Positions 3,870 to 45,074 of a DNA stretch of 64,000 nucleotides are shown here, piece after piece. The stretch is from Rhizobium acidisoli (lineage in GTDB: Bacteria; Pseudomonadota; Alphaproteobacteria; Rhizobiales; Rhizobiaceae): assembly GCF_002531755.2 (NCBI RefSeq), contig NZ_CP034999.1, forward strand, positions 124,001 through 188,000, in the 5' to 3' direction. Positions within the stretch are counted from its first letter, which is position 1. Each line of letters opens with the position of its first letter. The notes under the pieces were generated by a model. It saw only the letters and a program-made list of their open reading frames with translations. It searched no databases and was not told the origin of the DNA. The position numbers and the translations under genes were made by a program.

Positions 3870-4536
3870 AAACACTGATGGCCGCCCGCAAACAGCGCAA
3901 CGAGAAGCGCGCGGGCACTCGGCTTTGCTATCTCCCGCCACCTACACCACGTGCTGGGACATGATCGATAATTGTCGTTGGGCTGCGGCCTCCATATCAT
4001 GATCGCACAGGCCAGTGCCGTGTCGGATTCTTCACACATATGTCCAATACCTGACGTAGTTCTATGCTTTGAAGTCAGATAGGGCCTCCGGCGTTGACGC
4101 CGAAGATGGCCCTTGGAATTCGGGTGACAACGTTGCGAGAGTTGTGATCGCGTTGCGGGCAACCTGGCTTTTTAGCTTTTTAGAATTGATGGTTAGGCTA
4201 AAAGTTCTCTTGGAAGCCAGCTTTGTAGCTGCCTCTTCATAGCGTTGAATAGGATGTCTCGACCACAGTGGGATTTCCGGCTACCTTGATGATCAGGCAC
4301 TCGCGCTGTGAGGATTAGTTTTAACTGCGCCACCGACCCTGTTCGGGCGATTTCTTGGTGTCAGCAGGCCCTGAGGGGTATATCGGTCACGTGTGTTCCC
4401 TTTGCCTTAGCGCCGGCCACCTGACCGCTTCGCCTGATGTACACATGGCATGCAGGAACACAGAAAGCTTTCGCGAACACCGCAACACTTGCCTTGCGGC
4501 GCGCATGGATTCCCTTTCGAAGGAAATAGTACGATT
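3870..4536. other. Intergenic region without a recognisable gene
   Basis: I see no protein family and no clear RNA gene here. The right end leads into the -24/-12 promoter of the lectin gene. Confidence 0.5.
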
Positions 4537-4551
4537 TGGCACATACCTTGC
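4537..4551 (+). promoter_or_regulatory. Sigma-54 (-24/-12) promoter of the lectin gene
   Basis: The sequence TGGCACATACCTTGC matches the RpoN consensus TGGCACRNNNNTTGCW exactly, with GG and GC at the required spacing. Transcription would start near 4563, about 80 bases before the lectin ATG at 4646. I found no TGT-N10-ACA NifA site in the 200 bases upstream, so the activator is unknown. Confidence 0.7.
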
Positions 4552-4645
4552 TCAGACCACGGTGAAGGCTCACACACCCGAGTGTGTCACACCGTCGGGC
4601 GGAGACCTGCCTTCACGAAGCCAACAAATCAACAGGAGGCAAGAA

Positions 4646-5098
4646 ATGGGACAGTACGTAATCGAGTTTAAACAGAATCCAGACTTCGTGCTCGGGGTTG
4701 ACGACCAGAAGGAGGGCGCTAAGGTTGTACTCCGCGAAAAAGACTCGACGGTTTATCGCCACGCTCTCTGGGATCTGAACTCTGATAGTGGCGCAATCAC
4801 GTTGAACTCGAGCGCTGGCAATCTGGCGATTGGATCCGATCGCCTTGACCCACAAGCTCAGCTTTCGCTCAAGGTTTACAACCCCACCGACGAGAAGCAG
4901 CGATGGGAGTTGCTCAAGAAACCAGGCTTCATCCTTAGCAACGGCGACAACCGGCTGTGCATTGACAACGACGCTCGTGGAACGAGTACCGGCAATCGGA
5001 TCTGGCTATTCCAGTTTAACGGCTCGCCTGCTCAACAATGGAATTTCGTCTCTCTTTCGAATAGGCTCATGTCGACCTTTCAAGAGGCTGCCGAGTAA
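4646..5098 (+). CDS. Ricin-type beta-trefoil lectin domain protein
   Basis: This 150-residue protein consists of one beta-trefoil carbohydrate-binding domain. The typical repeats are visible as ALWDLN, then KQRWELL, then AQQWNFV (QxW-type motifs), plus CIDNDARGTSTGNRIWLFQFNG. I chose the ATG at 4646 because AGGAGG precedes it and because the sigma-54 promoter lies inside the longer upstream reading frame. No signal peptide is visible, so the protein may act in the cytoplasm or leave by another route. The sugar ligand cannot be inferred. RpoN control suggests expression under nitrogen-limited or symbiotic conditions. Confidence 0.8.
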   Translation: MGQYVIEFKQNPDFVLGVDDQKEGAKVVLREKDSTVYRHALWDLNSDSGAITLNSSAGNLAIGSDRLDPQAQLSLKVYNPTDEKQRWELLKKPGFILSNGDNRLCIDNDARGTSTGNRIWLFQFNGSPAQQWNFVSLSNRLMSTFQEAAE

Positions 5099-6509: not shown

Positions 6510-6959
6510 CTAGTCGCCTCCGATCGGCGCCTCACAGCTCATCGTCGTCGAACACGAGGCCCGCTTCCTCGCGGCCGATGCGCCAATCCGACCTGCGGCG
6601 AAGTGGGCGGCATCCGATGAAGAGCCCTGGTGGGCCGCTGGATCGCCAACCACCGTAACCGGCACGAACATCGCCTGCTGCGTGCAGACCTTGGCCGAGC
6701 GACCCGAGGTCAGCCCGGCATCCCGACGCCAAACATTCAGCAAACCACGATTGACGCCCCAGCGCCGAGCAACGGCCGAGATGTTCACATCAGGTTCCGC
6801 GCTTTCCGCAAGGATGCGCGCCTTCTCCTCGTCAGTCCAATTCCGCCGCTGGCGGCGACCGCTGATGACCTCGATCCGACGATATTTTCCCTCATGCCTG
6901 ACTTCATGCATGCCTTCATCCATGACTTCAAGCATGGCATCAGCGCGATCTCCAACCAT
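6510..6959 (-). pseudogene. IS66-family accessory gene tnpA (OrfA), isolated
   Basis: The N-terminal region EGKYRRIEVISGRRQRRNWT, then ARILAESAEPDVNISAVARRWGVNRGLLNVWRR, is a helix-turn-helix of the IS66 OrfA type. The C-terminal third no longer resembles the family, and no tnpB or tnpC follows downstream on this strand. A possible element end (GTGAGCGCTACGAACAG on the minus strand) lies near 7025-7045. It is a remnant that cannot transpose alone. Confidence 0.65.
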
Positions 6960-7269: not shown

Positions 7270-7285
7270 TGTCCGGTGCCCGACA
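7270..7285 (+). promoter_or_regulatory. NifA-type upstream activator site 1
   Basis: TGTCCGGTGCCCGACA is an exact TGT-N10-ACA match. It lies about 98 bases before the predicted start of transcription from the -24/-12 promoter at 7350, within the normal range for NifA sites. Confidence 0.7.
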
Positions 7286-7287
7286 AA

Positions 7288-7303
7288 TGTTTGGCATGCA
7301 ACA
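7288..7303 (+). promoter_or_regulatory. NifA-type upstream activator site 2
   Basis: TGTTTGGCATGCAACA is a second exact TGT-N10-ACA match, 18 bases after the first and about 80 bases before the predicted transcription start. Two sites this close, both upstream of a sigma-54 promoter, are unlikely by chance. Confidence 0.72.
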
Positions 7304-7349
7304 TATCCGCTTCGGCCAAGCCCGTTGTATTTATAAGAGGGTTTTTCTT

Positions 7350-7364
7350 TGGCACGAATAATGC
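7350..7364 (+). promoter_or_regulatory. Sigma-54 (-24/-12) promoter of the radical SAM peptide operon
   Basis: TGGCACGAATAATGC has the invariant GG and GC pairs at exact spacing. The only departure from the consensus is ATGC in place of TTGC. Transcription would start near 7376, leaving a leader of about 70 bases before the first start codon. With the two upstream sites this predicts NifA/RpoN control and so expression under low oxygen, for example in nodules. Confidence 0.75.
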
Positions 7365-7446
7365 TTCGGCTATCCGGAGACCCGTGAACCCGCTCATCAC
7401 GCGGAGTCAAAATGATAGCTCAATCTCGCGTTCGGAGTGAGCCTAC

Positions 7447-9375
7447 GTGGTAAAGCAAGCCCAGACAGAGTTACTCCGTGTTGACACGCTTTCGCAAATC
7501 GGCCTCGGAACGTGGCCAATGTCGGGCAATGACGGCATGCTAGGCTATGGTGGAGCAACAATGCGTGACGCCGCTGTGCTACTCGATCTGGCAGGCGATT
7601 TAGGCATCAAGCTGATCGATACAGCAACGGCATATGGCGATGGGCTGATCGAACGCGTGCTTAGCGAAACGGCTAGTCTGCATCGCTACGATTTCAACAT
7701 CGTGACCAAGTGTGGATGGGATACGGGGACGGGATGCTTTCTGGACAACGCTTCGGCCATTGCCAGGCAGCTCGACGTGTCTCTTACCAGATTTTCGGCG
7801 TATTCACCTCCAACGGTTCTCCTTCATTCGCCCCCGCCGGAACTACTCTCACGAGCTGAGCTTCTCGCCCCACTTGTGGAATACAAACGCAGCGGCGACA
7901 TCAAGGCACTCGGCGTCTCCGTACGTTTCTACGAAGATGCCGCGACCCTGCTCGACTTCGATGAGATTGAGGTTGTGCAACTTCCATATAATCCCGTCAT
8001 CGCGGCAGACGGAACTGACCTGATTGAGCGGCTGGCGGCGGCTGGTAAACGGCTGATGGCCCGGGAAGTTCTTATGAATGGGCTTTTCACGAATCGCTAC
8101 CCGGACGGCCATCGCTTTCCCGCTGACGATATGCGCGCTACGTGGCCTTTGTCGTTACGCAGTCGGGTAGAGGCTTTCAGGCGAGATTGGAGGCAGTTTC
8201 GACGCGATGGTGAAAGCACCCTTTCCTTCGCCATACGCTTCGCCTTTGACCGCTCCGAATTTGAAATGGTTATTGTCGGTGCGCGTACGCGTGTGCAAGT
8301 GGAAGCGCTTGCCGCGGTCGTGCGAAGCCATTCGAGTTTGCATCCTTCACCAAAACTTAGGAAAGAGGAAAGACCTATGGCAGAACCAACCGGTAGCAGC
8401 CCGCAATTCCCGCGGATGGGCTTTTCGGCAAGCCCCAATATGGCAATGTCCCCGCGTGGGGCGTTCGCCGTCACTCCGAACATGGCAATGTCCCCGCGTG
8501 GGGCGTTCGCCGTCACTCCGAACATGGCAATGTCCCCGCGTGGGGCGTTCGCCGTCACTCCGAACATGGCAATGTCCCCGCGTGGGGCGTTCGCCGTCAC
8601 TCCGAACATGGCAATGTCCCCGCGTGGGGCGTTCGCCGTCACTCCGAACATGGCAATGTCCCCGCGTGGGGCGTTCGCCGTCACTCCGAACATGGCAATG
8701 TCCCCGCGTGGGGCGTTCGCCGTCACTCCGAACATGGCAATGTCCCCGCGTGGGGCGTTCGCCGTCACTCCGAACATGGCAATGTCCCCGCGTGGGGCGT
8801 TCGCCGTCACTCCGAACATGGCAATGTCCCCGCGTGGGGCGTTCGCCGTCACTCCGAACATGGCAATGTCCCCGCGTGGGGCGTTCGCCGTCACTCCGAA
8901 CATGGCAATGTCCCCGCGTGGGGCGTTCGCCGTCACTCCGAACAGTACGTTCGGCGATGCAGCCGCAATTCCGCACACGGGATCCGTCGGCCCCTCCCCC
9001 TTTTATAGTCTGATGACCATGGCCGAAATGATGCCCCCATTCATAATAGAGGCCATTTTGCGGGAACTCGACATCACGATGCCTCAACGCAAGACGGACA
9101 TTTACTACGAAGAAGACGACGTCGTGCATATCCGCCGTTCGGGCTTGCAATATACGCTTTGGCCCCCGGCTAGCCTCTTTTGGAGCGCAATGGGAAAGGT
9201 CAAGACGACGGACATCATAACGGACATTGCTGAGAAGCTCGGCAGCCCCGATAGAAAAGAGCTCCGCCTTGTTATCGGAGATTTTCTGCTAAGTGCAGCG
9301 CTAAGCGATCTCGTCATCCTCTATCCTGAAGATATTTCAAAGGAAAACCTATCACCGCAAAAACCAGAGAGCTGA
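7447..9375 (+). CDS. Aldo/keto reductase fused to 12-repeat candidate precursor and RRE-like domain
   Basis: The 642-residue frame has three parts. Residues 1-310 are an aldo/keto reductase with the complete catalytic tetrad D58, Y63 (DTATAY), K88 and H127. Residues 331-498 are twelve identical copies of NMAMSPRGAFAVTP. A degenerate unit (FPRMGFSASP) stands just before the array. Residues about 555-635 resemble a PqqD-like leader-recognition fold (ASLFWSAMGK, then an acidic helical region ending LSDLVIL); this last call is tentative. The start codon is GTG. A ribosome-binding site and ATG at 8377 could also make the repeat-plus-tail protein alone. Three radical SAM genes follow at once, so the repeats are the likely substrate. 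The reductase may act on the modified peptide. Confidence 0.75.
   Translation: MVKQAQTELLRVDTLSQIGLGTWPMSGNDGMLGYGGATMRDAAVLLDLAGDLGIKLIDTATAYGDGLIERVLSETASLHRYDFNIVTKCGWDTGTGCFLDNASAIARQLDVSLTRFSAYSPPTVLLHSPPPELLSRAELLAPLVEYKRSGDIKALGVSVRFYEDAATLLDFDEIEVVQLPYNPVIAADGTDLIERLAAAGKRLMAREVLMNGLFTNRYPDGHRFPADDMRATWPLSLRSRVEAFRRDWRQFRRDGESTLSFAIRFAFDRSEFEMVIVGARTRVQVEALAAVVRSHSSLHPSPKLRKEERPMAEPTGSSPQFPRMGFSASPNMAMSPRGAFAVTPNMAMSPRGAFAVTPNMAMSPRGAFAVTPNMAMSPRGAFAVTPNMAMSPRGAFAVTPNMAMSPRGAFAVTPNMAMSPRGAFAVTPNMAMSPRGAFAVTPNMAMSPRGAFAVTPNMAMSPRGAFAVTPNMAMSPRGAFAVTPNMAMSPRGAFAVTPNSTFGDAAAIPHTGSVGPSPFYSLMTMAEMMPPFIIEAILRELDITMPQRKTDIYYEEDDVVHIRRSGLQYTLWPPASLFWSAMGKVKTTDIITDIAEKLGSPDRKELRLVIGDFLLSAALSDLVILYPEDISKENLSPQKPES
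8365..8379 (+). promoter_or_regulatory. Internal ribosome-binding site and start for the repeat protein
   Basis: GAGGAAAGACCTATG places a purine-rich ribosome-binding site before an in-frame ATG at 8377-8379, exactly where the reductase domain ends. Translation from here would give a 332-residue protein made of the repeat array and the C-terminal domain. The reductase frame has no stop before it, so fused and separate products are both possible. Confidence 0.5.
8437..8940 (+). repeat. Twelve perfect tandem copies of a 42-bp coding repeat
   Basis: The array is exactly 504 bases, twelve units of 42. All units are identical except that the first begins AAT and the others AAC. Each encodes NMAMSPRGAFAVTP. 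There is no cysteine, tryptophan or tyrosine; each unit offers one F, one R, one N, one S, one T, two P and two M. Third-position identity across all copies points to recent expansion or continued homogenisation. Copy number in an assembly may be collapsed or strain-variable. Confidence 0.97.
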
Positions 9376-9381
9376 AAAAAT

Positions 9382-10818
9382 ATGCTACAACCGGCGACCA
9401 TCCAGGCGCTAAGCCGACGCGATACCGGTGGGATCACATGGGACGAGGTAGCGGAGATTGCGCTGCCCGCAGGCCCCTTAGCTCTCCAAGTCAGCCTCGG
9501 CGACATCGAGGGCGAAATCTATGCGCAATGGGAGTTTGAGCCTAGCCTCGGCGGCAGCATCGGGCAGCTGCGGATCGATTTGTCGACGTTGGACCATACA
9601 AGCGTCGTACTTACCGGATCGCAAGCCAATCCGGTAGCGCGGGATTTCACAGGAGCCCGCCTGCCGCGACCCGGAGCTAGTCTGGCGCTGTTCGTCGAAA
9701 ACCGTGCTGTCTCGCCGGCCATCAGGCGGATGATCTCGGTGACCTGCGGTGAGAGCGCGTTCGTCCATTGGCAACAAACGCTCACCCCGCCAGCGCAATG
9801 GTTCTATGTCGAGATCACCAACATCTGCAATCTCAAATGCCCTTTCTGTCCCAGCAAGGACCTACTGCGACCCCGCCAGCACATGAGCCTGGCTCTAGCG
9901 GAGACCGTATTTCGGAAAATTGCCGATTACATCGCCGCTCAGTCTCTGGGCGAAGCCTATGTACAGTTCCGACCTATGGTCTTCCTGCATGTCATGGGCG
10001 AGCCGGTTCTGCATCCACGTTTGCAAAGGGTGGTGCAGCTCGCTCATGAAGCGGGACTGGCTGTGGCGGTTTTCACTAATGTGACGATGATCAACAGGCA
10101 GAATATAGGCAAACTGATTGAGGCTGCGCCGGAACTGGTGACGCTGAGCGTCAATACCCCCACTGAGTTAGGTTATGCCAAGCTCGGCACGAAAGACACA
10201 TTAAATGACCAGCACGAGCGGGTGAAATCCTATCTCCGTGAGCGGGCTGAAGCAGGCAGCTTCAAAACTGCGGTCGACATCCAATATATGTCGTCGAAAG
10301 GCGACAACGTACGCGGCGAAGGCTTGGTGCAATCTACCCAAGATGTATGGCGGCTCTTCAGGCGCTGGCTCGCAATCAATCGTTCTATACATCGCCACCA
10401 AAACGTCTCATTCCGTAGCTTGCCGCGGCTCCAGATGGTCGACATGGCGAATCCACTGTCGCCGCACCTCGATCCGAGCTTCCGCATTCCCTTGGGGTAT
10501 GGCGTCAATTTGACGATCAAGACAGCTTGCTCATTCGGCAACGTTACTCTGCCTAAAGGGCGGAAGGTCCGGCCGACGCGATTTGGACAATGTCCCTACA
10601 ACAGCCCGTTTCAGCAGATGGTCGTATTTGTAGATGGCTCAGTCTCATTCTGTAATCTTGATTACGAAAATACCGTCAATCTTGGAGACCTGTCAAAGCA
10701 GAGTATAGAGGCGCTCTGGAACGGAACTCGTATGACACGAACTCGAAACTGTATGGCCGCTGGCATTCTCAACGAGCCAGTCTGTCAGAGATGCCTTGGC
10801 GTGGTAGCGCCAAGCTAA
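9382..10818 (+). CDS. Radical SAM/SPASM peptide-modifying enzyme
   Basis: The 478-residue protein has the radical SAM cluster motif CNLKCPFC (C149, C153, C156). A C-terminal SPASM region follows, with cysteines in CPYN, FCNLDY, NCMAAG and VCQRC that would bind auxiliary iron-sulfur clusters. The first 140 residues are a separate beta-rich domain that I do not recognise; it may bind the substrate. SPASM enzymes typically form C-C, thioether or epimerised products on ribosomal peptides. The gene begins 6 bases after the repeat protein, so the two are surely one operon. Its substrate is probably the repeat array. Confidence 0.85.
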   Translation: MLQPATIQALSRRDTGGITWDEVAEIALPAGPLALQVSLGDIEGEIYAQWEFEPSLGGSIGQLRIDLSTLDHTSVVLTGSQANPVARDFTGARLPRPGASLALFVENRAVSPAIRRMISVTCGESAFVHWQQTLTPPAQWFYVEITNICNLKCPFCPSKDLLRPRQHMSLALAETVFRKIADYIAAQSLGEAYVQFRPMVFLHVMGEPVLHPRLQRVVQLAHEAGLAVAVFTNVTMINRQNIGKLIEAAPELVTLSVNTPTELGYAKLGTKDTLNDQHERVKSYLRERAEAGSFKTAVDIQYMSSKGDNVRGEGLVQSTQDVWRLFRRWLAINRSIHRHQNVSFRSLPRLQMVDMANPLSPHLDPSFRIPLGYGVNLTIKTACSFGNVTLPKGRKVRPTRFGQCPYNSPFQQMVVFVDGSVSFCNLDYENTVNLGDLSKQSIEALWNGTRMTRTRNCMAAGILNEPVCQRCLGVVAPS

Positions 10819-10834
10819 GAAGGGAGTACCGAGT

Positions 10835-12337
10835 ATGGTCGATCTTGCCTTCATCAGCCCGCCGACCCCATCGCCCGCGGAACATTCCGAATACTCTGTA
10901 ATGGCGCCGCCCCTTGGGATAGGCTATCTCGCCGCCATGCTACGCAACGCTGGCCACACAGTCGAGGCGATTGATTTAGCTGTGAGCCACAATCCCGTTC
11001 CAGACATGATCGACTTCTTACGGCGCACGCAGCCAAAAATCATGGGCTTTTATTTGCTGACACAGAACTACTACCTCACGCAGAAATTGTTGAAACTCGC
11101 GAAGGTGCAGTGCCCGGATACAATTGCATGGGCAGGCGGACCGCATGTTAGTTATGAGTATGAGCACGCACTGCGCGGAGCAGGCTTTGACGTGGTATTC
11201 ATTTTCGAAGCCGAGTACTCCTCCGTAGAAGTCGCGAACGTGCAACTGCGCGGCGAGGGCAAGCTCAAGAATATCGCCGGGATTGCCTTTCTCGAAGAAG
11301 ACGGAACGCTGATCAAGACGCCGACGCGCGAACGGGAGCGCACGCTCGATGCGCTTCCCTATCCCGCGCGGGACCTGTTCTCGATAAACCGGTATCTGCG
11401 CCCCGGCACCATTATGTCGAGCCGCGGCTGCCCCCTGAAATGCATTTTTTGCGTCGCCTCCACCTTCGAGGACGCCTACAGGTATCGGAGCCCTGAGAAC
11501 GTATTTGGCGAGATTAAGCATATGTACAATACATGGGGCGTCAACGACTTTTATTTCGTCGATAACGTATTCACAACACATCGCGGCCGCGCGCGCAAAA
11601 TCGCCCAGATGATTCGCGAATCTGGCCTGCCGGTCGGCTGGTATTGCGTCTCGCGGGTCGACTACGTAACCCCGCAGCTGATGCAGGACCTCGCCTCTGG
11701 CAATTGCTACCGCATTGAGCTGGGCGTGGAATCTGCCGATCTTGGAGTGATCGACAACATGAAGAAACATATCAAAATTGATCAGGTCCGCCGCGCTGCC
11801 GACATTATTCTCAATCTTGGGATGCAGCCTATGTTCACGTTTCAGGTCGGCCATCCGGACGATACACCCAAATCGATGGAGGCGACGATAAAGCTGATGC
11901 GCGAAATGCGCGAACAAGGCGCCGGCACCTACCTCTCGATCACGACGCCTTACCCGGGTACGCCCCTTTATCTGGGGCTCGAGAAGTACGGGGTAACTCT
12001 TGAGACGCAAGACTGGGAAGACTACCGCTGGAGCAATCCCACTTATTCTACCAAGAACTTTAAACGCGACTATCTTCGTCGAGCGGTTTTCGAGGAGGCC
12101 CAAGCACTCACCGAAGCGATTATGGCGGGAAAGCTAAAAGACCCGCCATCCGCGCCTTGGCTGCGCTTCGGAAAGCATCCGAACGGGTATGTACCGCCCC
12201 GACCGAGCAACAAAAGGGATCCCGGCACTTTGCGTATCGAAGAGCGGCAATCGGAGACACCGAGCCGTACGGTCAGATTGCCTGTCCTGCAAATCAAGCG
12301 TGATTCGCTCCGCCGGAAAGAAAGATCGCCTTGTTAA
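10835..12337 (+). CDS. B12-binding-type (class B) radical SAM enzyme
   Basis: The 500-residue protein has an N-terminal Rossmann-like cobalamin-binding domain (GIGYLAAMLRNAGHTVEAIDLA, then WAGGPHVSYEYE). A radical SAM core follows with RGCPLKCIFC (C199, C203, C206). The lower-axial histidine motif DxHxxG is absent, as is common in this class. Members methylate unreactive carbons or do cyclisations. A basic C-terminal tail of about 90 residues is extra. A good ribosome-binding site (AAGGGAG) precedes the ATG. In this operon it would add a second chemistry to the same peptide. Confidence 0.85.
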   Translation: MVDLAFISPPTPSPAEHSEYSVMAPPLGIGYLAAMLRNAGHTVEAIDLAVSHNPVPDMIDFLRRTQPKIMGFYLLTQNYYLTQKLLKLAKVQCPDTIAWAGGPHVSYEYEHALRGAGFDVVFIFEAEYSSVEVANVQLRGEGKLKNIAGIAFLEEDGTLIKTPTRERERTLDALPYPARDLFSINRYLRPGTIMSSRGCPLKCIFCVASTFEDAYRYRSPENVFGEIKHMYNTWGVNDFYFVDNVFTTHRGRARKIAQMIRESGLPVGWYCVSRVDYVTPQLMQDLASGNCYRIELGVESADLGVIDNMKKHIKIDQVRRAADIILNLGMQPMFTFQVGHPDDTPKSMEATIKLMREMREQGAGTYLSITTPYPGTPLYLGLEKYGVTLETQDWEDYRWSNPTYSTKNFKRDYLRRAVFEEAQALTEAIMAGKLKDPPSAPWLRFGKHPNGYVPPRPSNKRDPGTLRIEERQSETPSRTVRLPVLQIKRDSLRRKERSPC

Positions 12338-13410
12338 TGACGGTACCTTTGCCAAGCCACCTTTTCGTTGAAGTGACGAGCAACTGCAATCTCGCTTGCC
12401 CGCATTGCTATATCGAAGCCGGTGATGGTCGCCAGCGGCAGCTCAGCTATGAGACGGTCGAAGCCGCAATCGGGGAATTCAAGGAGACGGGCGGCGTCCG
12501 TTTTACGCTGAGCGGTGGAGAGCCGACATTGCACGAACGCTGGCGCGACATCCTTTCGGCTGCGCTGAAAGCCGGCCTTGCCACAGAGATCATCACCAAC
12601 GGCACGCGTTTTCTCGACAAGGATCTCGATTTCCTAACAGACAACCCGATCGCCATCGATATTAGCCTCGAGGCGGCAAACGCAACAACCCATGACGCGA
12701 TCCGTGGTAAGGGATCATTCGCTACAACAACAGAAACAATCGAGCGTTTGCTCACACGTCGCCTCGGTCACCGCATTACCCTGTGCTTTTCGCCAATGCA
12801 GCACAATTGCAACGAACTCCAAGCTGTGTTCGACTGGGCCGAGCGCCACGCGATCAAACGCGTATACATCTCCCTACTTGAGAACCGCGGCCGCGCCAAG
12901 CGACAGGGAGACGGCTTCGCGCCGACGGTATCGCAAAAGCAGGCGCTGATCGCAGACTTGGTCACGGTCATGGCGCGCCCGCGGACGACGGAAGTCGAGG
13001 CGCCAAACCTTCGCTTTTTCCCTGAGCGCCTTCTCGGCAGTGTGTCAGTCGCCGAACCGATTGACCGGACCCTCCGGATGACCCCCGATGGCGAGCTGTT
13101 CTTCACGGCCTACCTCGACGCAGACCCTTTCAGGCTCGGCCGCTACCTGCCCGGAAATCTCGCTGTCGCCTGGAGCTCAGATAAGGTGAAAAGCGCGTTC
13201 CTCGCCTGCAAGAGTCGCGTCATTCTGATGCCTGAGTGCCGGCAATGCTGGATCTACGAACTTTGCCAGGGCGGCAGTGCAATGTTTGCCTGGAATAAGG
13301 CGAAAGGCTTTTTCGACGTTGATAGCTATTGCGCGCCCAAACGCGCCTATGTCGAAGCCACACTTAGGAGCGCGAATCATGGCGTCTTTACGTCTCAAGC
13401 TGTCTTTTGA
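12337..13410 (+). CDS. Second radical SAM/SPASM enzyme
   Basis: The start ATG overlaps the stop of the B12 enzyme gene (TAATG), which indicates translational coupling. The 357-residue protein has CNLACPHC (C17, C21, C24) near its N-terminus and the SAM-binding motif SGGEPTLH. A SPASM-like C-terminus follows with CKSRVI, CRQCWIYELC and YCAPKR. It has no N-terminal extra domain, unlike the first SPASM enzyme. It most likely modifies the repeat peptide or a neighbouring residue. Confidence 0.85.
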   Translation: MTVPLPSHLFVEVTSNCNLACPHCYIEAGDGRQRQLSYETVEAAIGEFKETGGVRFTLSGGEPTLHERWRDILSAALKAGLATEIITNGTRFLDKDLDFLTDNPIAIDISLEAANATTHDAIRGKGSFATTTETIERLLTRRLGHRITLCFSPMQHNCNELQAVFDWAERHAIKRVYISLLENRGRAKRQGDGFAPTVSQKQALIADLVTVMARPRTTEVEAPNLRFFPERLLGSVSVAEPIDRTLRMTPDGELFFTAYLDADPFRLGRYLPGNLAVAWSSDKVKSAFLACKSRVILMPECRQCWIYELCQGGSAMFAWNKAKGFFDVDSYCAPKRAYVEATLRSANHGVFTSQAVF

Positions 13411-13690
13411 AACTGGGCTGTTGATTAAAGGATTTGCTGTCAAAGCCGGCCTGCCGGAGGACATGCCGCTAAGAATCGACATCATCGGAGGTGCCGATTC
13501 AGGCTTTGCTTACGAACTTTATTTCGACAGGCCCGGAGATGGCGATATCGTAATTTCCACGGGGGGGCGGCAACTGGCAGTTTCGCCGGACGTTGCATAC
13601 TATCTTGATGGAAGCACAATCGACTGGGTGGCGAGCGAAAACGGCAGCGGTTTCTATATTGATAATCCTAACGAACCGGATAAGACCTGA
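13379..13690 (+). CDS. IscA/HesB-fold protein lacking all cluster cysteines
   Basis: The 103-residue protein follows the A-type iron-sulfur carrier fold: LRIDIIGGADSGFAYELYF, then SPDVAYYLDGSTIDWV, then GSGFYIDNPN. The first conserved cysteine (normally GGCSG) is D40. The protein ends at NPNEPDKT, before the usual CGCG pair. It therefore cannot bind a cluster in the usual way. The start overlaps the preceding gene by 32 bases. Candidate roles are a scaffold for the radical SAM enzymes or a peptide-binding partner; both are inference. Confidence 0.75.
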   Translation: MASLRLKLSFETGLLIKGFAVKAGLPEDMPLRIDIIGGADSGFAYELYFDRPGDGDIVISTGGRQLAVSPDVAYYLDGSTIDWVASENGSGFYIDNPNEPDKT

Positions 13691-14398: not shown

Positions 14399-15025
14399 TC
14401 AGCACTCATCTAGATACATCCGGCATGCCAGCAGTAATTTTCCGATGGCTGCTAGATGCCTGTCCCGTTGCGGCAAATCGAAATGCTCCTGTATCGTCAC
14501 GGGATAAGCCCAAGGTATATGGACAAACAGGGCCTTCGCGGTCGACGCCACTTCGTCTAAGCGTCTAAGTACGCGGTAATAGATATAGTTACAGACGTAG
14601 TCGCCCGCGTTGTTCGACACGCAATAGGGGATGCCAGCCACCGCCAGCTGCGCTCCGACACGTTCAAGATTGACAGAGGTCCCGTATGCGCGGGGGCCGC
14701 CATCGACAATCGCGACTCCACTGCGAACCTCGCCGCGATTGTCCGCTACGCCACAATCGGCTACGTTGATGGCAAAGCGCTCAAGCTTAAGCCTATCTGT
14801 CGACACAGACAGGCCAAGCATTAGGATTAGATCTGCGTCCAGGGCGAGATCGAGGCTTCGCTCTAGCCAGTTGTCGACTCCCGCGTATGAAGTTGGAAGG
14901 ACCGAAAACTCGATCAGATCGAACAGGTCGTTTGGGGGATGCCGTCTTAGGCTTTTCAAAATCTCTTCGGATGGGTTAAACGGAAGCCCGGCAAACGCGT
15001 CGAATCCGGTCACCAGCGCTTTCAT
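14399..15025 (-). CDS. pcp: Pyrrolidone-carboxylate (pyroglutamyl) peptidase
   Basis: The 208-residue protein has the C15 cysteine peptidase triad in order: glutamate in LERFAINVADC, cysteine in SNNAGDYVCNYIYY and histidine in LFVHIPWA. It also has the typical N-terminus VTGFDAFAG and the stretch FNPSEEIL. It removes N-terminal pyroglutamate from peptides in the cytoplasm. The ATG at 15025 was chosen because GGAGGGAT lies just before it. The length is normal for the family. It stands alone and faces the CYTH remnant, and nothing here links it to the neighbouring peptide operon except distance. Confidence 0.9.
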   Translation of the reverse strand: MKALVTGFDAFAGLPFNPSEEILKSLRRHPPNDLFDLIEFSVLPTSYAGVDNWLERSLDLALDADLILMLGLSVSTDRLKLERFAINVADCGVADNRGEVRSGVAIVDGGPRAYGTSVNLERVGAQLAVAGIPYCVSNNAGDYVCNYIYYRVLRRLDEVASTAKALFVHIPWAYPVTIQEHFDLPQRDRHLAAIGKLLLACRMYLDEC

Positions 15026-15185
15026 TGCGGATCCCTCCGGAAACAATCTCTTCGCTCGACTGCTCGGTTCCCCCAATCCTTCGCCCACGTGGACCGTTGC
15101 AGCAGGCGGGCTCGCGCTCCCGCATCAAGGTCGAGTCGGGTGGCCTCGTGTTTCACACGGCTCAATCCGAACTTAGGGCAGAGCA

Positions 15186-17807: not shown

Positions 17808-18275
17808 TTAGTCCTTCAAGAGGCTTTTGTTCTCAGTCGTCGGCACGTACTGGAAAGTGTCTTGTCCTTGCTCAATGGCCGGTCCGGAGCCGCCTTCGTA
17901 AGCGAGGTTCCAGCTCGTAACTATCTCAGTGTTGTTGCCGTTGACCTGTGCGTAGCCGGTCCATCCGGTTGCGGAATTGCAGTTTTCCGTCGAATTGTTC
18001 CAGCCGACCGAAAATGCGATGAACGTCCCGTTTACCCTTCCTGTTAGCGGATAGGGCGAGTTCTGGCATCCGGTGCCCTGTGCTCTGTTTACATATTGGC
18101 CGGAGACATTTCCGAACGAGTCGACTTGAATGATCATCGTCGAGCCGGACCGGTTCTGCCAACTGCTGGAAGCCGATGCGATGCTTGAAAAATCCTTGAA
18201 GTTGCTTGCATCGAAAGCAAGAGCTGAGGTTGCTACAGCAAACACAAGTGCTGCAACTGCAGTAGTACGGATCAT
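17808..18275 (-). CDS. Secreted avidin-family biotin-binding protein (rhizavidin)
   Basis: The 155-residue protein begins with a clear signal peptide (MIRTTAVAALVFAVATSALA). An avidin barrel follows: SSWQNRSGSTMIIQVDSFGN, TGRVNGTFIAFSVGWNN, GWTGYAQVNG and TEIVTSWNLAYEGG. Two cysteines (GTGCQN, ENCNS) can form a disulfide. From memory it is nearly identical to rhizavidin, the dimeric avidin of R. etli. The ATG at 18275 has a perfect AGGAGG before it. It would bind free biotin outside the cytoplasm, either to deprive competitors or to regulate biotin, which matters in these biotin-dependent bacteria. Confidence 0.95.
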   Translation of the reverse strand: MIRTTAVAALVFAVATSALAFDASNFKDFSSIASASSSWQNRSGSTMIIQVDSFGNVSGQYVNRAQGTGCQNSPYPLTGRVNGTFIAFSVGWNNSTENCNSATGWTGYAQVNGNNTEIVTSWNLAYEGGSGPAIEQGQDTFQYVPTTENKSLLKD

Positions 18276-18390
18276 GGTTTTTCCTCCTGATGTGCGCCGA
18301 CCGTCGGCGATCGTACCGAAGGTTGCATATAATCTCGTAATAATCAATCAATCCGAGTAGCAATTTACCGGGTTGAGAAACCCGAAAGAC

Positions 18391-25634: not shown

Positions 25635-26336
25635 CTGCAACACCAAGTGCGACCAGTCCACCGGGCCCTTAAAGTGCATCCTTGACCGGAAACGTGTCTT
25701 AACCGTAGTGGTGAAGCCGCGCCTGATGCCGCCGGCTGTTCAAAAAGGGAAAGCACCAGCCCTACCGAAACCCTCTTCTGGTATCTACTGCAATGGACTT
25801 GTAATCGACAACGGGCAGGCCTTTTAAACTATGTTCGACACGCCCGGACTAACGACTTTCAGCGGATCGTTGCCATGTATATCTATGACAATTTCGTCAT
25901 CGATATAGATATCGATATCGCATAACTCAATGCGCGAGCAGGATGAGTTGGAAATGTTTAGCTAACTGACTGAAGCGTTACGTGCCGCATCCCTCGAATT
26001 ACATGGCACGGGTTCCAATGAACGTGCCCGGCCAGCCACATAACTGCTCGTCCGAAGGTTTCGACAGCTCGCCGGACGTTAGCGTTGGTCAGGATGAGAA
26101 GCCCATGTGGGGTTCTCTTGAAAATGAAAATTGCCACCGGACTGTCCGGAAAACGGCGCATGGGTCGCTATAATCGCAGGGCGCTGATCGGACAGTAATG
26201 CAACTTCCAGCGTGGAGAAGCGTGTTGCCTGCAGCCAAACGTCATAATCCGGCTTCCCTTCGGAATATGACCTTTCCCGCGAACGCTCGGCAAGATAGTA
26301 CTCGACAAAGTACCCGTCGGCATTCTACTTAGTGAC
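25635..26336. other. Intergenic region without a recognisable gene
   Basis: No family was recognised. A short run of overlapping palindromes (ATCGATATAGATATCGATAT) lies near 25898. The right end carries the -24/-12 promoter of the metallopeptidase. Confidence 0.4.
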
Positions 26337-26351
26337 TGGCACGGTTGTTGC
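26337..26351 (+). promoter_or_regulatory. Sigma-54 (-24/-12) promoter of the metallopeptidase gene
   Basis: TGGCACGGTTGTTGC matches TGGCACRNNNNTTGC exactly. Transcription would start near 26363, leaving a leader of about 27 bases before the ATG at 26390. No exact TGT-N10-ACA site was found upstream. Confidence 0.7.
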
Positions 26352-26389
26352 GTCGTCTCACGAAAGACAGCCGTTAACGAGAGGTCACG

Positions 26390-40279: not shown

Positions 40280-43200
40280 TCAGAGGTTGATGCCGCGAGC
40301 GCGGCTAGCAGCCCTTTGGCGCCGCTCCGCTATGATCTGCTCACTGCTCTGCAGACGGACAGTCTGCTGCAGGACCTTCAACCGCTCCTGCATCGCCGCG
40401 AAAGCTCGGCGCTGCGGTGGCGGCACGCGGTTGACAAGATCCTTGTCACCTCGGACGAGGGCATTGCGACCAAAGCGCTCGTCGAGCGCCCGGCTGACGG
40501 CCGCAAACTCCCGGCCAATGCCCTGCTCGAGGGAAGCGGCGGAAACACTCAGCTTCCTGCTGTCCTTCCTCACCTCGACCGTCAGGTGCGCCAACGCCTC
40601 TTCCGCAGCTTTCGAAAGAGCTGGAATGGCAACCGCCATGCGCCGCCGTTCGTCCGTGATAGCCTGGCGTTCGGAATCGAGGGCATTGAGGTAGGCCGCA
40701 CCGAGCGCGCGCAGACGCGCTGCAGCTTCCGGCACGGTCCGCGTCGCCTCTTTCCGCTCTCGGCCAGAGGCCAGCATCCGGTCTACGAGACGGTCGGAAC
40801 CGCGCAAGGCCGCGTAGGCCGCCGGGTCATTGGCCATAGCGGCAGCGATGCGATCGGCGGCAAAACCTTTCCCGAGCAAATCTTCGACCTTATCGACGGC
40901 GCCGGCCGGATCGCGCCATATCATGTATGCCGCTTCGGCCAGTACCGCGCGCCGCTGGCGATAGAGAGGCGAAGCAAGAGCACGAGATCGGGCCTCGTCG
41001 TCGACAGGAACCTTGAACTCGGTGACGGCGGCAAACATGGGCGGCATGATGATTTTCTCCTTCCCTGGCTCGTTGCTCAAATCGGCACTCGCGCCGGCGA
41101 TGACCTTCGAACGATCCCGACGCTCGGCGAGGTGCTGCTCTTCCGCAAAGCGCCGCACGGCTTCGAACAGCCGCATTAGCTTTCCGTGCCGTTTGTCCGT
41201 GAGATCCTCCGGCATACGCTCGGCGATGTTGCGTTCCACGATATCATCCGCCTTCGAGGTGAAGGCGCTCCAGCCGAAACGGGCGGTCAGCGCTTCGCTG
41301 ACGGCCTTAATCTCCTGCACGACCGAGCGATCCTTGGCGGCAAGCGCGAAAGCCGTCTTGTAGGCATCGTCACCGCCGTGTGCGCGCACCGCCTCGATCT
41401 CGAGGAGGCGCGCCATCGCTCGTTCGGATAGCGCCGGGATCGACAATGACATATGCGCACGCCGCCGATGCTCCCGGTCGCGGAACCGTTCGGGTCCCTT
41501 GCGAAACTCCGCCGCGTGGGCGCGGGCCAGCGGCAGCAGTTCCACCAGGGCCGCCATCGCCACGCTGCGCTCGTTGCGGGCGGCTCGCCCATCGACAATC
41601 AGTTCGGAACCACGCAGCCGGCCAAGCCGATTCGGTGCTGCGGCAAGGTCGTCGGCGAACTCGCGCGGTGCGATGCCGGGATTCGATGCTAGCGCATTGA
41701 GAGCAACAAGCGCGGCATCCGGGTCGCGATAGACCTTCTCGAGCAGCGGCCGCAGGACCGCTTCCCGCTCCTTCCAGGCCGGGGATGACAGTTGCGCCAG
41801 CCGCACATCCTCGTCAACGCTCCGGAATAAGGCGGTGGCCGGCGGGATCAGATAGCGTGTTTCAGCAGCACTTGCGCCCGAGACGGAGTGGGATGCAGTT
41901 CGCGCGTCACTGGATGTCGCTTCGACCATCGTCTGGCTCCGTTCTTCATTGTAGGCGACCCGCCGTTCCCGCTCGATGGCAAAGCCGAGCGCCACGCTTG
42001 CCCTCTCCCAGAGCTTCGCCACCTGCTCCCTCTTCTCGGCAATCCACGCCCAGCGCCGGGACAGGCTTTCCTCCATCTCGGCTGCGGCAAGCGAGAGATG
42101 ATCGAGCCCGCGGCGCCGGGCGAAGTCGTTCGCGTGTGCGCGGTAACTGGCCTCGCTCTCAAAATCGAGCGTCGTCGTCTTGGCACCGGAGCGCGACAAG
42201 CGTTCGACGAGCGGATTGAAGAGTTCCGGCCGATGACTTTCCCGCTCGATGCGCTCCTGTCGTGCGCTAGCGGTCTCGACCTGGCTGGCTGTCCAGACGT
42301 TGCGATCGACCTCCCTCTCCTCGTAATGCTTGTGACCTGTCTTCTCGTCGACAACGGCAATCTGGACCTTGACCCGCTCGACACCATCCTTTCTGAGCAT
42401 CACGGTGTCGCCTTCCTGGATGCCGGCCTCCTCGAGTGCCTTCGGCAGGCTCACGCCCCAAAGCCGATGGACGGTTCCGTCGTCCGCCCTGACGTCGGCA
42501 TAAGGGCTGTCGTCGGCATCCTCGTCATCAGGCCGGAATTTGGCTTGGCCGGTTTCGACAAGCTCGCCGGTGACACCCGCGGCGTGATCGACACGCGCCT
42601 TGCGTCCCCATTCAGGTTTTGCCGCAAAATCTTCTTTGGCCGCATAAAGATCGACGCGGTCGCGATGCCTCGTCATCGACACATAGGTCAGATGCTGGTC
42701 CATCATCCCGGTTGCCAGCACGAAGGTGCGATCGACGGTAGCACCCTGCGACTTGTGGATCGTTGCGGCATAGCCGTGATCGACATGGCGATAGCTGTCT
42801 TCGCTGAAGGCGAGCTTGCGGCCGTTGTCGAGCAGAACCGAAAGCAGCGGATCTCCACGCTTGTCGCCGGTGGAGACGACGGTGCCGAGCATGCCGTTCT
42901 TCACATACTGCGGCCCGGAGTGCTTGGCGCGCGGCTCAAGGAAGCGGGCGTTCTCCAGGAAGATGATGCGGTCGCCGGCGGCAAATTCCCGTGCGCCCCG
43001 CTCGCTCCGGAAGCTTCGGCTTTCACTGAGCGCTCCCTCCTGCGTCATCACCGATCGCAGCGCCTCGTTCAACTTGCGAACATCGTCGTTGGTGTGGGCG
43101 AGCACCAGCAGTTCATCACCGCGAAGGTGGCCATCCCCGCCCTCAGACGTTGATCGCTCTACTGCCTCTCTGCGCGCAACCGCCCAGTCGGAGACGATCC

Positions 43201-44965: not shown

Positions 44966-44989
44966 TGGCGTCTCCAGACTGGCCCAAGC

Positions 44990-45020
44990 ACGTCGCGACA
45001 GCGACGTATATTGCGCCCTC
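44990..45020 (+). other. oriT with predicted nick site
   Basis: A perfect inverted repeat ACGTCGC-GACA-GCGACGT (44990-45007) is followed by ATATTGCGCCCTC, like the RSF1010/Ti-plasmid arrangement where a hairpin precedes TAAGTGCG|CCCT. The nick is therefore predicted on the plus strand between 45015 and 45016. Since the 5' end leads, the sequence to the right enters first. Confidence 0.8.
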
Positions 45021-45074
45021 AAACAGATCGGACCGAAGGGCCGATGCCGCTTTTCTGGTTGCACGGTAGCGCAT

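Follow-up and report, generated by a model that had tools for sequence, protein, structure and literature searches.

The 64-kb window of Rhizobium acidisoli DNA analyzed here carries five tightly packed genes, comprising three for radical SAM enzymes, one for an IscA-fold protein, and one for a protein with a perfect tandem repeat. Their arrangement raises the question of whether they constitute a pathway that modifies a ribosomal peptide and, if so, when it would be deployed. The reading that we favor, and hold to be probable with some reserve, is that genes 1 to 5 form a NifA-controlled, multi-core RiPP-type peptide-modification operon. The initial annotation had arrived at a similar view: its proposal of NifA/RpoN control agrees with the sequence evidence, its RiPP assignment is plausible, and the conserved neighborhood that it hoped to see in other genomes was not found in the samples and close relatives searched.

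Operon and promoter

Both the operon and its promoter are confirmed, and their sequence, domains, and layouts were read directly (Table 1). Genes 1 and 2 are separated by 6 bp and genes 2 and 3 by 16 bp, while genes 3 and 4 overlap by 1 bp and genes 4 and 5 by 32 bp. All five frames are intact, and the spacing is operon-like. The dense operon described in the initial annotation, along with its two TGT-N10-ACA sites and -24/-12 promoter, is present in every piece and at the coordinates given there. None of the five genes encodes a protease or an exporter. Transposase genes or their fragments lie on both sides of the operon.

Table 1. Coordinates of the operon, its promoter elements, and its domains within the window
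Feature	Position	Strand	Remarks
NifA upstream activator site (UAS) 1, TGT-N10-ACA (putative)	7270..7285	+	80 bp upstream of -24/-12 TGG
NifA UAS 2, TGT-N10-ACA (putative)	7288..7303	+	62 bp upstream of -24/-12 TGG
-24/-12 (sigma-54) promoter TTGGCACGAATAATGCT	7349..7365	+	pattern match
Gene 1, 642-aa ORF: aldo-keto reductase, linker, 12 x 14-aa repeats, C-terminal domain	7447..9375	+
Aldo-keto reductase domain	7447..8322	+	PF00248, 1.3e-29, residues 18-292
Candidate separate 332-aa precursor from internal ATG 8377	8377..9375	+	Shine-Dalgarno-like site
Candidate diverged repeat 0, SSPQFPRMGFSASP	8395..8436	+	4/14 residues as in unit
12 perfect copies of 42-bp unit	8437..8943	+	protein repeat NMAMSPRGAFAVTP, read from Asn 8437
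Candidate RRE-like segment of gene 1 C-terminal domain	9097..9306	+
Gene 2, 478 aa, SPASM/twitch radical SAM	9382..10818	+	CNLKCPFC; ~140-aa N-terminal extension
Gene 3, 500 aa, B12-binding + radical SAM	10835..12337	+	CPLKCIFC; nearest models BchE/ApyD/HpnJ
Gene 4, 357 aa, radical SAM	12337..13410	+	ATG 12337; CNLACPHC
Gene 5, 103 aa, IscA/A-type fold	13379..13690	+	no cysteine

The -24/-12 element fits the working pattern YTGGCACGNNNNWTGCW without mismatch and is one base off the strict consensus TGGCACG-N4-TTGCW, with ATGCT for TTGCW. Single TGT-N10-ACA sites are uninformative, because the window holds 8 against 6.05 expected by chance. Rarity resides instead in the combination of UAS and -24/-12 elements: TGGCA-N7-TGC with at least two UAS 30 to 200 bp upstream, a pattern picked after the site had been seen, occurs once in the window and in none of 300 dinucleotide shuffles, and when a single UAS suffices, the counts are one for the window and nine over all 300 shuffles taken together. 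By the pattern used, the two 20-kb stretches flanking the window contain no -24/-12-like site. The promoter region is single-copy in its own genome.

In the parts of the literature consulted, the NifA-RpoN regulon of rhizobia is defined by TGT-N10-ACA plus TGGCACG-N4-TTGCW (PMC3538637, PMC4999443), although the former paper prints TGT-N10-AGA for the UAS. The Mesorhizobium loti fixA promoter quoted there, TTGGCACGAATGATGCT, is one base apart from that of the operon and shares the ATGCT variant of TTGCW. The word "radical" is absent from the main text of both papers. A nifA gene scoring above the family cut-off and encoding full-length NifA lies on the same contig as the operon, and the genome's own fix-type promoter has the same UAS and -24/-12 architecture. 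Moreover, a 78.7%-identical promoter region is found on a plasmid of Sinorhizobium fredii GR64 that also carries nodD2; it keeps UAS 1 along with the entire -24/-12 element, the latter unchanged, and the second half of its UAS 2 is AGA. Because the site layout, the nifA gene on the contig, the fix-type promoter, and the GR64 promoter all agree, control of the operon by NifA and RpoN is well supported by comparison of sequences. The host replicon looks like the symbiosis plasmid of a root-nodule bacterium.

In GR64 the related promoter region precedes an S9 peptidase gene. We dropped this peptidase as a candidate for cleaving the repeats, nothing being in its favor; a search of the R. acidisoli genome for a relative at E <= 1e-20 returned none, an empty answer that carries no weight.

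Gene 1: a reductase, a repeat array, and a possible recognition domain

The initial annotation treated gene 1 as a repeat protein. The repeats stand, but a complete aldo-keto reductase precedes them in the same frame. This domain was overlooked, as were the start codon within the linker, the likeness of the C-terminus to an RRE, and the loss of every cysteine from the gene 5 product. The reductase aligns with General stress protein 69 (1pz1) at Asp, Tyr, Lys, and His, the usual AKR tetrad, so that its likely catalytic residues are kept. In the linker, ATG 8377 is a plausible internal start: the Shine-Dalgarno-like site before it scores -5.9 kcal/mol, a strength equaled or exceeded at 2 of the 69 other in-frame internal ATGs of genes 1 to 4.

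Tandem-repeat detection reports 12.0 copies of a 42-bp unit with 100% matches at 8440-8944, and 8440-8943 is exactly the unit taken twelve times in the register ATGGCA...AAC. The encoded 14-residue repeat has no Cys, Trp, Tyr, or His and a single Phe and a single Arg per unit. Four of the five other frames through the array are also open, and expansion of a perfect 42-bp array does not require selection. The segment just upstream shares P-R, F, and the final P with the unit, a likeness that 3.6% of shuffles equal, which weakly suggests a diverged repeat 0.

There are weak signs that the C-terminal domain is a RiPP recognition element (RRE). It faintly resembles PqqD, and its predicted structure displays the element order under test at a mean pLDDT of 43. 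Other results speak against an RRE. With a home-made HMMER profile of PqqD, 197 of 5000 shuffles score higher than the domain, and the part of PMC7470986 that bears on the matter words the order of RRE elements in reverse. Residues 501-642 match neither PF05402 (PqqD) nor any other Pfam family at E <= 10, Foldseek gives no match at E <= 0.001, a sequence search of the PDB finds no RRE, its top hit at E 0.047 being an unrelated protein, and a PHROGs sequence scan yields nothing of note.

Three radical SAM enzymes and a cysteine-less IscA-fold protein

Of the two SPASM enzymes initially proposed, gene 2 is borne out by Pfam (PF13186, 42.8 bits against a cut-off of 21.5; PF04055, 42.6 bits against 29.5) and has SPASM/twitch cysteines at 404, 424, 468, and 471, with further ones at 383 and 457; the structure model of its N-terminal extension is unusable (mean pLDDT 35.6). 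Gene 4, searched as a 359-aa version from TTG 12331, does not match PF13186 and owes its SPASM label to the cysteine pattern alone (291, 301, 304, 310, and 332). The B12-type enzyme was correctly identified, gene 3 possessing both a B12-binding domain and a CxxxCxxC radical SAM domain. The CxxxCxxC motifs are kept in the radical SAM genes. BchE and HpnJ, among the nearest models of gene 3, catalyze ring oxidation or rearrangement and not methylation.

None of the NCBIfam matches listed, 25 of 50 with gene 2 and 25 of 86 with gene 4, attains the cut-off of its model. The best model for gene 4 is the mycofactocin maturase, at 90.1 bits, and PqqE is matched too. Taken with the PqqD-like tinge of the C-terminal domain, these matches could be read as pointing to a PQQ- or mycofactocin-like cofactor made from a peptide, in which the array would do no more than supply a small core in quantity and the reductase would serve cofactor chemistry. 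We regard this as quite improbable: gene 4 falls far below the cut-offs of both models (265 for the maturase), and PQQ and mycofactocin use Tyr and have known precursors with one core, whereas the cores here lack Tyr and come in an array.

A different alternative is that a small molecule is the joint product of the reductase and the three radical SAM enzymes, the repeats being a tail of the reductase that serves structure or binding and is not enzymatically modified. Aldo-keto reductases and BchE/HpnJ-type B12 radical SAM enzymes do occur in small-molecule pathways, the reductase and the repeats share one frame, and the five genes include no protease or exporter. A Shine-Dalgarno-like internal start directly before the repeat part and a weakly RRE-like C-terminus count against it, as does the fact that peptides are the known or expected substrates of many SPASM-subfamily enzymes (PMC9062424, section 4). 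On balance, we deem the small-molecule explanation unlikely.

For gene 5, the IscA fold that had been recognized holds; the Pfam scan used a longer frame from 13277 and the PDB scan 13391-13687. A-type iron-sulfur carriers (IscA/ErpA) hold their cluster with conserved cysteines. The gene 5 product has Asp at the position of the HI1723 Cys and no Cys at all, which sets it apart from such carriers.

Searches for relatives

No relative of the operon turned up in the genome, plasmid, and contig searches, which covered samples or close relatives and put into practice the check for conserved neighborhoods suggested in the initial annotation. The class, order, family, and phylum sets were overlapping samples searched at strict thresholds, and in these runs the best three to four first-look candidates per genome were scored. 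Besides its own genome, which is counted in each of the genus, class, order, and phylum sets, gene 2 has no match at E <= 1e-20 in 148 genus or 385 class genomes and one in 398 phylum genomes (25% identity); with a limit of 1e-8, 14 other genomes among 397 of the order match weakly (26-35%). The phylum match is a 656-aa radical SAM ORF on a 12.7-kb contig, on which tblastn at E <= 1 detects no other operon gene, gene 4 aligning to this same ORF. Gene 3 in 394 family genomes at 1e-40, and the gene 1 C-terminal domain in 148 genus genomes at 1e-3, match their own genome only.

Among 72,556 plasmid records, no record covers 80% of the DNA query, and of the 92 matching records, the 40 listed have their best match outside the coding part. 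At the protein level, gene 2 finds matches of 21-32% identity in 13 records, all of them listed. Identities reach 31% for gene 3 (40 of 181 matches listed) and for gene 4 (25 of 298), and are 34-44% for gene 5, where A-type carriers make up most of the matches listed (25 of 145). The C-terminal domain matches nothing at E <= 1. The gene set is in none of six annotated plasmid neighborhoods inspected. On a plasmid of Smac51, ORFs resembling gene 2 (23%) and gene 3 (25%) lie roughly 5 kb from each other, surrounded by sugar and methyltransferase genes; in Rhizobium sp. T1473, gene 4 aligns with each member of a pair of neighboring radical SAM genes (30% and 21%). Genome contigs gave seven stretches, none confirmed, and in a further search one locus with 24% identity to gene 2; viral contigs gave nothing confirmed in two of the queries and at least 26 loci at 22-35% in another. 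The comparative case for the five genes belonging together does not go beyond the operon structure.

One might see in this a decaying or chance assembly in a transposon-rich plasmid stretch, with a recently expanded array, a borrowed NifA promoter, and no working pathway. The lack of relatives in the searches made, the transposases on both flanks, and a promoter region found before an S9 peptidase gene elsewhere fit such a history. Five intact frames with operon-like spacing, complete promoter elements, and preserved CxxxCxxC motifs and likely catalytic residues of the reductase argue against it, and we consider it very improbable.

Comparison with known systems

The operon has a repeated-core precursor beside a SPASM-type radical SAM gene, as expected of a multi-core radical SAM RiPP. 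In the description consulted (PMC9062424), the TVG pathway of Halomonas anticariensis (TvgA/TvgB), which makes cyclopropylglycine from Val without Cys chemistry, resembles it in its repeating core, adjacent SPASM-subfamily enzyme, and independence of Cys. There, however, the unit is TVGG rather than 14 residues, and one radical SAM enzyme is joined by a dioxygenase and two transporter/peptidase proteins; the B12 enzyme, reductase, IscA-fold protein, and NifA promoter of the operon do not figure in that description. As far as the source shows, Pbs/biphenomycin-type pathways also use a B12 radical SAM enzyme, whose targets are residues derived from Phe in a ribosomal peptide, but include an MNIO, an arginase, a hydroxylase, and a conserved FHAFRF motif, all missing from the operon (PMC12257519). 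Borosins, in the passages seen, likewise carry the core and the enzyme that modifies it on a single polypeptide (PMC7878506, PMC8429565); their enzyme is an N-methyltransferase, whereas gene 1 fuses the core to an aldo-keto reductase and may separate the parts by an internal start.

The His-Xaa-Ser (HxsABCD) system combines a repeat peptide with two radical SAM enzymes and a small accessory protein. The gene 1 unit lacks the His that defines such repeats, and the operon has a B12 enzyme and a reductase in addition. HxsB and HxsC are named in the part of PMC9062424 consulted.

A proposed pathway and its implications

From these features we infer the RiPP assignment, the recognition domain, and the product, together with the expression, recognition, chemistry, cleavage, and function of the pathway. 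NifA and sigma-54 would switch the operon on under micro-oxic or nodule nitrogen-fixing conditions, in which low oxygen would let the oxygen-sensitive radical SAM enzymes work. Gene 1 would supply the substrate, twelve identical 14-residue cores with a C-terminal domain probably recognized by the enzymes, either as one reductase fusion or also as the separate 332-aa precursor. Each core would then be modified by the products of genes 2 to 4, distinct radical SAM enzymes that include a cobalamin-dependent one, candidate sites being Phe, Val, Pro, Arg, and Ser/Thr. The lack of Cys in the core rules out thioether chemistry and makes oxidative or ring-forming chemistry likelier; since the families nearest to the B12 enzyme include the ring-acting BchE and HpnJ, a hydroxyl, a carbonyl, or a C-C bond is a reasonable guess. 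The reductase may act on a carbonyl so formed, the IscA-fold protein may be a protein-binding partner and not a cluster carrier, and release of the units would fall to a protease that none of the five genes encodes. Against this pathway count the operon and precursor found in no other genome of those searched, the want of a protease or exporter in the operon, a C-terminus that is not PF05402, the sub-cut-off NCBIfam scores, the expandability of the array, and its other open frames.

More tentatively, and with the odds against it, we suggest a RiPP pathway of new architecture, controlled along with nitrogen fixation: reductase, twelve cores, and recognition domain would share one polypeptide, and three radical SAM enzymes with a cluster-less IscA-fold partner would install Cys-free oxidative or ring-forming changes, yielding a peptide signal, metal ligand, or antimicrobial only in micro-oxic nodules. 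A search of 5.39 million open-licence full texts, outside which most subscription papers lie, gave none that connects radical SAM, NifA, and RiPP. If the proposal is true, enzyme, substrate array, and recognition domain would be joined in one reading frame, and the array would be a clean cysteine-free radical SAM substrate, with one Phe per unit in twelve copies for mass reading. The IscA fold would gain a role apart from iron-sulfur transfer. Bacteroids would make a heavily modified peptide only while NifA is active, and a contribution of the symbiosis plasmid beyond the nif, fix, and nod genes would become testable by a single knock-out.

Promoter of the operon

The operon of genes 1-5 lies behind two NifA upstream activator sites (UAS) and a -24/-12 element (see the table of features); the consensus for NifA/sigma-54 promoters is TGT-N10-ACA together with TGGCACG-N4-TTGCW (PMC4999443). 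A lone TGT-N10-ACA is uninformative, since the window contains eight such sites against 6.05 expected; rather, it is the combination of UAS and -24/-12 element that is informative. TGGCA-N7-TGC with at least two UAS 30-200 bp upstream, a post hoc search pattern, occurs once in the window and in none of 300 shuffles, and with at least one UAS in that range it again occurs once, with a total of nine occurrences over 300 shuffles. The other four -24/-12-like sites in the window lack a UAS at 30-300 bp. The host genome has the same layout at a fix-type promoter of its own, TTGGCACGAATGATGCA, whose UAS lies 82 bp upstream; the M. loti fixA promoter reads TTGGCACGAATGATGCT (PMC3538637). A Sinorhizobium fredii GR64 plasmid, on which nodD2 is also found, has a promoter region 78.7% identical over 195 bases; it keeps UAS 1 and the 17-base -24/-12 element, and its second UAS ends in AGA. 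There (8001-8500 of L003, the locus on that plasmid), the next annotated gene encodes an S9 peptidase; thus, one NifA-type promoter precedes different genes. Similar DNA matches also occur on another S. fredii plasmid and two S. americanum plasmids.

Features of the window (window coordinates)
Feature	Position	Strand	Details
UAS 1	7270		TGTCCGGTGCCCGACA
UAS 2	7288		TGTTTGGCATGCAACA
-24/-12 element	7349		TTGGCACGAATAATGCT
Gene 1	7447-9375	+	GTG start; 642 aa
Ricin-B-type lectin gene	4355-5098	+	PF00652; contains the -24/-12-like site at 4537
-24/-12-like site	4537		no UAS; in a long ORF, upstream of the lectin domain
12-bp tandem repeat	6892-6936		3.8 copies; within an HTH_Tnp_1 transposase ORF
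Pyroglutamyl peptidase	14399-15088	-	PF01470
Avidin-family protein	17808-18347	-	PF01382, 7.7e-15
-24/-12-like site	26336-26352	+	no UAS; a 304-aa ORF with no Pfam match follows after ~40 bp
MobA/MobL relaxase-helicase	40280-45064	-	1594 aa; near its end matches the Bartonella effector BID domain (PF17841)

Gene 1: a reductase, a repeat array and a C-terminal part

The initial annotation had placed a repeat protein first in the operon. Its array proved exact, but the protein is longer than first seen, with a reductase in the same frame. In order, this single frame encodes an aldo-keto reductase domain (PF00248, 1.3e-29, residues 18-292), a linker of 18 residues, a lead-in of 20, the array and, last, a C-terminal part of 142 residues. 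The usual aldo-keto reductase tetrad of Asp, Tyr, Lys and His lines up with General stress protein 69. The array consists of exactly 12 copies of a 42-bp unit (100% matches in TRF) encoding N-M-A-M-S-P-R-G-A-F-A-V-T-P, which lacks Cys, Trp, Tyr and His; without Cys, thioethers are excluded. Because the unit length is divisible by three, four of the five remaining frames across it stay open as well, which accounts for spurious ORFs predicted there; the true frame is fixed by the reductase ahead of the array and the C-terminal part behind it. Ahead of the array, ATG 8377 has a Shine-Dalgarno-like site (-5.9 kcal/mol) near those of genes 1 (-6.1) and 5 (-6.5), weaker than that of gene 3 (-8.2) and stronger than those of genes 2 (-2.9) and 4 (-3.5 or -1.2); of the other 69 ATGs that lie in frame inside genes 1-4, 2 equal or exceed it in strength. 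This makes a separate 332-aa precursor, predicted from that ATG, a real alternative to the fusion protein. A possible diverged repeat ahead of the array, SSPQFPRMGFSASP, has P-R, F and P in common with the unit; since 3.6% of shuffles reach this resemblance, it only hints at which residues matter.

Radical SAM enzymes and the IscA-fold protein

Gene 2 matches radical SAM and PF13186 models; its 140-aa N-terminal extension matched no family. Six cysteines follow the radical SAM motif, and 404, 424, 468 and 471, read by eye, fit one auxiliary cluster, as in BtrN, the sole PDB molecule matching gene 2 at E <= 0.01. Gene 3 combines B12-binding and radical SAM domains. Its model scores (BchE 138, ApyD 135, HpnJ 133, AprD4 99.9, PhpK 97 and HpnR 90.5 bits) all fall far below the cut-offs, and thus indicate a lean toward BchE, ApyD and HpnJ rather than a placement. 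A preprint counts BchE, HpnJ and PbsB among the cobalamin radical SAM enzymes that do not methylate but build or rearrange rings (PMC13142503). Gene 4 is a radical SAM protein whose top model is mycofactocin maturase (90.1 bits against a cut-off of 265) and whose best PDB matches are SkfB and PqqE. Its earlier designation as a second SPASM enzyme holds in part: Pfam detects no SPASM domain, but five cysteines have SPASM-like spacing. Gene 5 has an IscA fold (PF01521 at exactly its cut-off, 26.3 bits; PDB HI1723, 1.9e-12), yet it has no cysteines, with Asp at the position of the HI1723 Cys.

Genomic setting and distribution

The window comprises bases 124001-188000 of contig C2 (671,287 bases) in a 7.5-Mb genome of five contigs. 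The same contig encodes a full-length NifA (580880-582544; 758.7 bits, cut-off 528.85), close to ORFs that by eye resemble nifS and fixABC. Elsewhere in the window are the avidin-family protein, the relaxase and a type II/IV secretion ATPase, and the stretch around the operon matches 92 plasmid records (Rhizobium 73, Mesorhizobium 12, Sinorhizobium 6, Nitratireductor 1). We infer a rhizobial symbiosis plasmid. The avidin-family protein resembles rhizavidin. Both sides of the operon carry transposase genes or fragments, of Mutator, HTH_Tnp_1 and IS66 type. A pyroglutamyl peptidase lies 0.7 kb downstream on the opposite strand; its proximity to a peptide pathway is probably coincidence.

In searches covering samples or close relatives, no related operon was found. 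Among 148 genus genomes, gene 2 (at 1e-20) and the gene 1 C-terminal domain (at 1e-3) were each found solely in the window's own genome; thus, the operon is rare within the genus, and it may be recently acquired or fast-diverging.

Proposed pathway

At low oxygen, NifA and sigma-54 would switch the operon on. The C-terminal domain of gene 1 would bring the radical SAM enzymes and their substrate together, and these enzymes would modify the cores; the reductase may work on a carbonyl that they form or on another intermediate, and the units would be released by an unlinked protease. In reported work on Tig, a B12 enzyme accompanies a repeat precursor. TvgB and PbsB offer precedents: TvgB acts repeatedly on a TVGG array (PMC9062424), and the B12 radical SAM enzyme PbsB links Phe-derived residues (PMC12257519). 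No open-licence PMC paper combining "radical SAM", NifA and RiPP was found, nor was "aldo-keto reductase" among the matches listed from that literature; a word search of a review on the radical SAM enzymes of RiPP pathways (PMC5682303) found none of "repeat", "IscA" and "aldo".

The operon, its promoter layout, the domains and the perfect 12-copy array are shown by the sequence, which confirms and extends the observation of a radical SAM repeat operon with its promoter. Its interpretation as a NifA-controlled RiPP system is partly supported; the searches of samples or close relatives yielded no related operon. The operon is probably a multi-core radical SAM RiPP pathway, a kind already known, and stands out by its reductase-array-RRE-like (RiPP recognition element-like) frame and its NifA control.
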